Shown piece by piece: positions 1 through 11,219 of a DNA stretch of 64,000 nucleotides. Under the pieces are notes generated by a model. It saw only the letters and a list, made by a program, of their open reading frames with translations. It ran no database searches and was not told the origin of the DNA. The first letter of the stretch is position 1; the number at the start of each line of letters is the position of its first letter. The translations under genes and the position numbers were made by a program. The stretch is taken from NCBI GenBank assembly GCA_947475895.1, contig CANJMF010000009.1, forward strand, positions 1 through 64,000, in the 5' to 3' direction. Source of the DNA: Fidelibacterota bacterium (GTDB lineage: Bacteria > Pseudomonadota > Alphaproteobacteria > Rhodospirillales > Rhodospirillaceae).

Positions 1-114
1 CACTACAACACCAAGCGGCCCCATTCAGCGCTCGGCTATAGGCCACCGGCGCCGGTGGCCTATAGCCCGATTCCAACACCACTCGAACAAAGCCAAAGTC
101 ATGCAGTAGACTAA
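1..114 (+). CDS. IS3-family transposase, C-terminal fragment (orfB, rve integrase core)
   Basis: In frame 1 the first 37 codons read HYNTKRPHSALGYRPPAPVA followed by a short tail and a TAA stop. The NTKRPHSALGYRPP string is the hallmark C-terminus of IS3-family DDE transposases, just after the catalytic glutamate of the rve domain. The rest of the gene, including the DDE residues, lies upstream of the window. The product would catalyse excision and insertion of the element. The stop lies about 33 bases from the element's right end, the usual spacing in this family. The start is not in the window, so I cannot say whether the transposase is intact. Confidence 0.75.
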   Translation, partial: HYNTKRPHSALGYRPPAPVAYSPIPTPLEQSQSHAVD

Positions 115-147
115 CATCTCGACTGGTACAGAAAATCGGTCAGGTCA
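1..147 (+). mobile_element. Right end of an IS3-family insertion sequence
   Basis: The window opens inside an insertion sequence. The transposase reading frame stops at 112-114, and about 33 bases follow before the likely terminus at 147, which ends in CA as IS3-family elements do. Read inward from the end, the terminal sequence starts TGACCTGACCGATTTT, like an IS3-type inverted repeat. Beyond base 147 an AraC-like reading frame on the minus strand resumes exactly after its conserved HAHHA motif, so the element looks inserted into that gene. The left end lies outside the window, so the matching inverted repeat and target duplication cannot be seen. Confidence 0.65.
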
Positions 148-266
148 GCGTGGTGAGCATGCAAGTCGGTGCGGCGGGGTTCCGGAGAGGCAGGTTTGGT
201 TGCATCCACCACCCATAGGGCCCCGCCCTCCCACATAACGATCCGCGCGTGCGCCAAAAGCTCCAT
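148..266 (-). pseudogene. AraC-family regulator, N-terminal fragment cut by the IS element
   Basis: Reading the minus strand from ATG at 266 gives MELLAHARIVMWEGGALWVV, continuing to RRTDLHAHHA, where the insertion-sequence end begins. The pattern of a short beta-rich cupin segment ending in HAHHA is typical of the sensor domain of AraC-type regulators. After the junction the frame runs a few codons into the IS and stops at 111-113. The DNA-binding helix-turn-helix half is missing here; it would lie beyond the left end of the element. The assignment rests on a short motif, so another cupin-like protein is possible. The gene as seen cannot make a functional regulator. Confidence 0.5.
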
Positions 267-9932: not shown

Positions 9933-10147
9933 CGGGCGCCCGCCACCAATTGAATCGAGCGGCAAGTGTTCTCCCGCGGAAGGGCCCTACTCAGGTTCGA
10001 TTGCTTCTTTTATCTTGTAAAGATCACTGAGATTTGCGGTTCATAGAGACACATATGCGCGTCAAACGACGGAGATTTTTACATCTTCCGCAGCTAATAC
10101 GAGGATAAATTTAAACAAGGCCCAGCATTACTTGATCAACCGATAAG

Positions 10148-10163
10148 TGGCATAACTGTTGCA
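10148..10163 (+). promoter_or_regulatory. Sigma-54 (RpoN) -24/-12 promoter
   Basis: TGGCATAACTGTTGCA matches the sigma-54 consensus TGGCAYR-N4-TTGCA at every defined position. Transcription would start near 10175, about 25 bases before the ATG of the PEP-CTERM-like gene. In bacteria with PEP-CTERM/exosortase systems, such genes are known to be driven by sigma-54 with the PrsK/PrsR two-component pair, so the match also fits the gene downstream. No enhancer site could be assigned with certainty. Confidence 0.75.
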
Positions 10164-10199
10164 TCTACCTCTATTGCGAGCCAACCAATGGAGGTTTCA

Positions 10200-11048
10200 A
10201 TGCACCGCACCCATGCCTCACTTTTCCTTTTAGTGTCTATTGCAATTCTTGGTCTTTTCGCCGCGCAGGCCGCCATCGCCGCGCCCGTCATAATTGCCGA
10301 CACCACGGACTCGTCCGCGACTTACGTGGGCGGTGATTATGGAGGTTATTCCAGCGCCAATTTCGCAGACCGAGCGGCAGGCGGCCGTCACTGGGGCGAT
10401 GAACTTTATGACGCTGGGCATCGCTTCGATACCACACAGATATCGGTCGATCGCGATGATCCCACCAAGACGCTGACGATTACACTTCGCACGATGTTCA
10501 ACGGCAATGATCAAGGTGTCCATTACGCAGACTTGTTTTTGGACACTAGCTCTCCCACGACGCCTGACAGCTATGGATACGCAATTGCACTAGGCGGACA
10601 GACCAAAGCGGCGGGCGTGTATGCAATCGGTTCCGCCTCCACTTCCAATGGTATTTGGGGCGGACAAGGAATGTACGTGTATGGAGGCTACTCACAGTTC
10701 AAGACATCGTCGCCGAGCTTTGATGCCGCCATGGCGCTGCAAAATTATACCCGCCTCGACAGCGGAACCGTGATGAGCGATTACACGGCAACTGTGAGCC
10801 AGACCGACGTAGGCGGAGGTTTCTATGACGTGGTCGTGGCTCTCACGTCGTCAACCAATCTCTCGCTATTCGACGCTTTCGATCTGTTCTGGGGCACTGG
10901 CGACTGCGGCAACGATGCAATCTGGGGGTCAGTGGCCTTCGCGCCATCCGGAACACCGGTGGATGCTCCGTCCTCATTGTTCATCCTTGGCGCCGGATTG
11001 GTTGGACTATTTGTCTTAGGACGGCGGCCGAAGATTCAACCCCGTTGA
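10200..11048 (+). CDS. Exported protein with PEP-CTERM-like sorting tail
   Basis: I chose the ATG at 10200 because a strong GGAGGT lies just before it; an upstream in-frame ATG at 10188 overlaps that ribosome binding site. The 282-residue product has a signal peptide ending near AIAA-P (residue about 28), a glycine-, serine- and aspartate-rich body with no catalytic motif I recognise, and a C-terminus VDAPSSLFILGAGLVGLFVL then GRRPK. That tail (short motif, one membrane helix, arginine cluster) is the layout of PEP-CTERM sorting signals, here with DAPSS in place of PEP. Such proteins are cut by an exosortase and contribute to exopolysaccharide, biofilm or floc matrices. No exosortase gene is in the window. 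A sigma-54 promoter lies directly upstream. Confidence 0.75.
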   Translation: MHRTHASLFLLVSIAILGLFAAQAAIAAPVIIADTTDSSATYVGGDYGGYSSANFADRAAGGRHWGDELYDAGHRFDTTQISVDRDDPTKTLTITLRTMFNGNDQGVHYADLFLDTSSPTTPDSYGYAIALGGQTKAAGVYAIGSASTSNGIWGGQGMYVYGGYSQFKTSSPSFDAAMALQNYTRLDSGTVMSDYTATVSQTDVGGGFYDVVVALTSSTNLSLFDAFDLFWGTGDCGNDAIWGSVAFAPSGTPVDAPSSLFILGAGLVGLFVLGRRPKIQPR

Positions 11049-11181: not shown

Positions 11182-11219
11182 GGGCCGGACATTAACTAAA
11201 ATGTCCGGCCCCATTTTTT
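11182..11219 (+). terminator. Intrinsic terminator
   Basis: A perfect 12-base stem, GGGCCGGACATT with AATGTCCGGCCC, surrounds a six-base loop and is followed by CATTTTTTG. It lies 130 bases after the PEP-CTERM-like gene. It would end that transcript, and being nearly symmetrical it may also serve the minus-strand gene that ends at 11322. No gene is seen in 11049-11321. Confidence 0.85.

Follow-up and report, generated by a model that had tools for sequence, protein, structure and literature searches.

A candidate member of the PrsK/PrsR/RpoN regulon encodes a PEP-CTERM-like protein with a variant tail in a genome with no detected exosortase

Does a sigma-54-type promoter in front of a gene for an exported protein with an unusual C-terminus mark a member of the PEP-CTERM regulon, and what would become of such a protein in a genome in which no exosortase is found? 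These questions are raised by the gene for a 282-aa PEP-CTERM-like exported protein at 10200–11048 of the window, as we call the entire stretch of 64,000 nt analyzed here (window features are on the plus strand). Residues 1–27 (10200–10280) form a predicted Sec signal peptide, recognized by inspection, with cleavage at about AIA/AP and a helix at residues 5–21 in the AF2 model. The mature domain (residues 78–247, 10431–10943) is beta-rich in the AF2 model, a low-confidence beta-sandwich prediction (mean pLDDT 66), and contains a conserved CGND-I-WG near its end; C236, N238, and D239 are conserved among the homologues. No solved structure matched by sequence, by fold nothing was found at E ≤ 0.001, and the loose beta-sandwich resemblances, none of which reached this threshold, were set aside. 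There was no match in plasmid and phage collections, and one scan of genome contigs returned a single distant relative. The C-terminal tail (10959–11045), delineated from the sequence, the profile, and the AF2 model, consists of the motif VDAP (10959–10970), a transmembrane helix (residues 258–274), and RR with a basic end; the protein ends with VDAPSSLFILGAGLVGLFVLGRRPKIQPR. Downstream, an intrinsic terminator at 11182–11219 (a 12-bp stem with 8 G-C pairs, followed by a T run) closes the unit. Because this terminator is strong and no sigma-70-like promoter was seen in the region, the simplest reading makes the gene a unit of its own, separate from the upstream mreB. The contig itself begins with an end of a multi-copy insertion sequence (window 1–150).

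A pattern scan with consensus scoring placed the putative sigma-54 promoter, TGGCATAACTGTTGCA, at 10148–10163 (−24 TGGCA, −12 TTGCA). It is separated by 36 nt, rather than by the 37 bases given in an earlier note on this DNA, from the ATG at 10200, for which a Shine-Dalgarno motif, GGAGG, can be read directly from the sequence at 10190–10194. The same note had described an exact match to the −24/−12 consensus. The core, TGGCA-N6-TTGCW, is indeed matched exactly, but comparison with the fuller consensus TGGCACGNNNNTTGCW gives 10/12, so that "perfect" is true of the core only. By itself, the sigma-54 pattern is at chance level in this genome: the window contains 10 matches with at most one mismatch, against 9.3 expected, and in the 3.3 Mb of the genome 11 sites match exactly, compared with 10 when the pattern is reversed. 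The pattern alone was therefore dropped as evidence. Other exact-consensus sites (at a flagellar-hook-protein-like gene, a UDP-sugar epimerase gene, and others) have no enhancer, except for one on contig C23. At this locus (L178, G000:C23, 2217–2296, minus strand), a PrsR enhancer is followed at a spacer of 53 nt by a sigma-54 promoter scoring 12/12. The ORF behind it has no PEP-CTERM tail, no NCBIfam family match, and only a sub-cut-off Pfam match; by eye, its end resembles the ATPase domain of histidine kinases.

The window site goes beyond chance because the promoter is combined with an enhancer. Proteobacterial PEP-CTERM genes have been described as preceded by a 17-nt motif 1 with a TTTACA end, followed by a sigma-54 motif 2, with a mean spacer of 62.8 nt (range 32–92) between the two (Haft 2006, PMC1569441). 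A putative PrsR-type enhancer of this motif 1 kind, ACGACGGAGATTTTTACA, is located at 10066–10083; its TTTACA end (10078–10083) lies 64 nt upstream of the −24 element, in agreement with the published consensus and spacing. With a profile built without the window site, from 20 other PEP-CTERM enhancers, 10066–10091 ranked first among 127,950 window positions (18.5 bits, compared with 14.0 for the next). The composite TTTACA-N38-66-TGGC-N7-TTGC occurs once in the 64-kb window, against 0.01 expected, and a loose version applied to 536 kb of the genome matched at each of the six PEP-CTERM-like genes that have the promoter and at just three further positions. Judged by these motifs, the predicted switch is an ordinary one that agrees part by part with the switch published for RpoN/PrsR control of PEP-CTERM proteins. 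The frequency of the promoter pattern alone and the sub-cut-off score of the tail would fit a fortuitous resemblance to a sigma-54 site in front of the gene for an unrelated secreted protein with a membrane anchor. That explanation is largely refuted by the composite pattern, with its enhancer at the matching spacing, and it is further opposed by the co-occurrence of PrsK, PrsR, and RpoN, by the conservation of the switch before homologues, and by the canonical PEP tails among these; we regard it as highly improbable.

Across the genome of the window and the order, the distance from TTTACA to the −24 element varies in steps, with values of 40, 51–53, and 63–65 nt (window 10078–10163, L045, L046, L047, L050, L182, L185, L189, L190, and L198–L209). 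For 21 spacers the resultant was 0.81, a value that none of 20,000 draws based on the published mean and SD attained; the stepping is an exploratory result, because the set was preselected for TTTACA within 120 nt and one 3-nt spacer (L207) was left out. At this exploratory level, the steps look as if the helix face mattered.

The genome (3.3 Mb, 36 contigs, rated 100% complete) encodes the regulators. RpoN is represented by one DNA-binding domain, PrsR scores 634.6 bits (cut-off 502.6) and has the GAFTGA loop, and PrsK scores 600.7 bits (cut-off 300). The genes prsR and prsK lie side by side on contig C21, where they adjoin a PEP-CTERM gene and the gene for the XrtA/PEP-CTERM glycosyltransferase, which is above the TIGR03013 cut-off. 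The earlier claim that RpoN with PrsK/PrsR controls such genes in PEP-CTERM/exosortase bacteria agrees with this inventory, the dependence of the window gene on RpoN and PrsR being predicted from sequence. A genome search returned six further proteins above the Pfam PEP-CTERM cut-off, and the genes of five of them have a sigma-54 site and an enhancer, as expected if other tail proteins share the promoter, a check that the note had proposed. With the window gene included, both elements precede six of the seven PEP-CTERM-like genes, with spacers of 64 nt (window), 40 and 82, 52, 52 (CTTACA), 40 and 94, and 52 nt, and the seventh gene, on C5, has neither. Sigma-54 scores of at least 10/12 within 200 nt of the start were found for 6 of the 7 PEP-CTERM-like genes, compared with 8 of 310 other ORFs (Fisher p = 1.5e-8, an approximate value because the starts of the PEP-CTERM-like genes were picked by eye and the control windows reach 30 nt into the ORF). 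Taken together, the results make it very probable, at roughly 0.88, that the window gene belongs, as a unit of one gene, to the known PrsK/PrsR/RpoN regulon of PEP-CTERM proteins. Contig C21 also carries, a few kb from prsK, a gene for a 2,246-aa protein of ALTATQIAALS-like repeats (L045, G000:C21, 11742–18482), which has a sigma-54-like site upstream and no TTTACA enhancer.

At least eight genomes of the order, from congeners as well as from other families, encode homologues of the protein body. Enhancer and promoter are kept before the homologues in G035 (spacer of 64 nt), G045 (64 nt), G244 (65 nt), and G242 (63 nt), which are only about 27–35% identical to the window protein. The homologue in the congener G005 is 49% identical, yet has no recognizable sigma-54 site, and this lack counts against regulon membership.

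The homologues also bear on the tail. The window protein has a signal peptide (by inspection), a C-terminal motif, a membrane helix, and a basic cluster; with VDAP in place of VPEP, it has no PEP motif and falls below the cut-offs of PF07589 and TIGR02595. The Pfam tail profile gave E = 3.3 for the protein alone and, in the genome search, 16.5 bits against a cut-off of 20.7. The protein is filed here as PEP-CTERM-like because its own tail is below the cut-off but homologues of the same family, three of them, have tails that exceed it. At the same place, homologues have VPEPGS, VPEPAT, LPEPAA, VPAPGA, VPVPGG, or VPTPAA, and the congener G010 has VDAPPA. Since VDAP occupies the position of the VPEP of relatives, the window tail looks like drift inside PEP-CTERM rather than a separate class. 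The suggestion in the note that the DAPSS tail is a variant sorting signal is thus in line with the VPEP, VPAP, VPVP, VPTP, and VDAP found there among homologues. VPLPA-CTERM, VPDSG-CTERM, and other NCBIfam/Pfam variants resemble it in combining the tripartite layout with an altered motif; however, the window protein has no match to any of these models, and the tails of its one family span the range between VPEP and VDAP. In G024, which is rated 99% complete and has no PF09721 exosortase, five PEP-like genes, four of them side by side, have nearly identical VPAPGALALLGLGLLGLGGLRR tails (L212 7703–11392, L215 9503–10111).

One of the closest known systems is the PEP-CTERM/EpsH (XrtA) system with PrsK-PrsR-PrsT and RpoN (PMC1569441), with which the locus and its genome share the single-gene unit, the TTTACA-ended enhancer, a spacer near 63 nt, the sigma-54 promoter, the signal peptide, the tripartite C-terminal tail, PrsK, PrsR, and an EpsB-type glycosyltransferase. 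In contrast to that system, VDAP stands here for VPEP, an exosortase is undetected, and prsT is truncated. A sigma-54 promoter with an upstream enhancer likewise precedes pepA of Aquincola tertiaricarbonis RN12, which has prsK and epsB2 as neighbours; its RpoN1 dependence was shown by experiment, and its product has a role in floc formation (PMC9850573). The protein bodies differ, and control of the window gene is predicted from sequence. RpoN and PrsK/PrsR control and a role in floc formation are also reported for Zoogloea in the summary of PMC9012009.

By analogy, PrsK would phosphorylate and thereby activate PrsR, and phosphorylated PrsR would bind the enhancer at 10066–10083. With the DNA looping over 64 nt, PrsR would remodel the RpoN holoenzyme at 10148–10163; transcription would start about 12 nt after the −12 element and end at the terminator at 11182–11219. 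The signal peptide would take the product into the periplasm, and the C-terminal helix would hold it in the inner membrane, presumably with VDAP outside and RR inside, a tail layout as expected of an exosortase-type sorting signal. Release or attachment by an exosortase, suggested by the family, is the least secure step, after which the mature beta domain may pass to the surface or into the exopolysaccharide matrix. The window protein is read as secreted and probably surface-attached.

The sorting enzyme itself was not found. No exosortase was detected in the genome assembly with PF09721, or with TIGR04178 at E ≤ 10, and the XrtA-type amidotransferase (TIGR03108) is absent from the assembly; no sortase candidate was found adjoining the PEP-CTERM genes. 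The search works in the genus, since exosortase genes adjoining an XrtA-type amidotransferase gene were found in the congeners G010 and G012. Judged by the note's own refuting condition, the exosortase half of its prediction either fails or is still undecided, as the prs locus stops at an assembly break: contig C21 starts in an IS3-like element inserted in prsT (L045, G000:C21, 1–1207), of which only the N-terminal third is left, roughly the first 300 of the 899 positions of the profile. The C21 end of the element recurs at some ten contig ends of the genome. Among the contigs of at least 3 kb, no end with the opposite side of the element continues prsT, which argues against a plain insertion with the rest of prsT on another contig and suggests a deletion or rearrangement. 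The 3-bp duplication matches at contig C15, but the protein encoded there is unrelated and beta-propeller-like.

How is this gap to be read? An IS-mediated deletion of the exosortase core could have left an orphan regulon, in which proteins expressed under PrsR stay anchored in the membrane or are freed by other proteases. The truncation of prsT by the IS3-like element and the lack of a continuation, which is not that of a simple insertion, point this way, as does a second EPS gene, a glycosyltransferase gene on C23, that is also cut at the other end of the element and has as its neighbour a YdcF gene, the G010 relative of which is next to the exosortase gene. The drift of the tail would fit relaxed constraint, but VDAP is also the tail motif in G010, a congener with an exosortase, and the variant thus cannot be put down simply to decay following a loss. 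We give the deletion serious weight, somewhat short of even odds. Alternatively, the PEP-CTERM/exosortase system may be complete and working, with the exosortase gene in an assembly gap or on a missing small contig. C21 does break within prsT at a multi-copy IS shared by about ten contig ends, pieces below the smallest contig (3,007 bp) may be missing, and the congeners G010 and G012 do have an exosortase gene adjoining the amidotransferase gene. However, the genome is rated 100% complete, and this reading requires the assembly to lack not only the exosortase but also its amidotransferase neighbour and the C-terminal part of prsT. This account is tentative, possible rather than probable.

The tails could also be processed by a divergent exosortase that escapes the profiles or by an unrelated intramembrane enzyme. 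Seven of the 13 compared genomes with at least three tail matches have no PF09721 match, including G000, G024, G020, and G035, rated 97–100% complete, and the near-identical VPAPGALALLGLGLLGLGGLRR tails of several G024 proteins argue for continued recognition. Yet TIGR04178 remained empty at E ≤ 10 in the window genome, no common multi-pass protein except an efflux pump lies near the PEP-CTERM genes, draft assemblies could conceal genes, and tail matches to a short profile do not prove sorting signals, so that we consider such an enzyme unlikely. The broader proposition, that the family keeps PrsK/PrsR/RpoN-controlled PEP-CTERM proteins without a recognizable exosortase and has them processed by an undescribed divergent or unrelated enzyme, is more doubtful still.

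The regulon described in 2006 is thus supported from sequence, part for part, in the lineage of the window, and it includes proteins with tails that standard models miss. The window gene is very probably a new member, with a drifted tail, of a regulon that is already known, and the missing enzyme may be a matter of assembly. A member rejected by the tail models is recovered through its enhancer-promoter pair, which offers a way to list drifted variants of the sorting signal. If the exosortase is truly absent while regulators and targets persist, a direct question arises: what is the role of such proteins when no sorting enzyme is there, or which other enzyme has taken its place?
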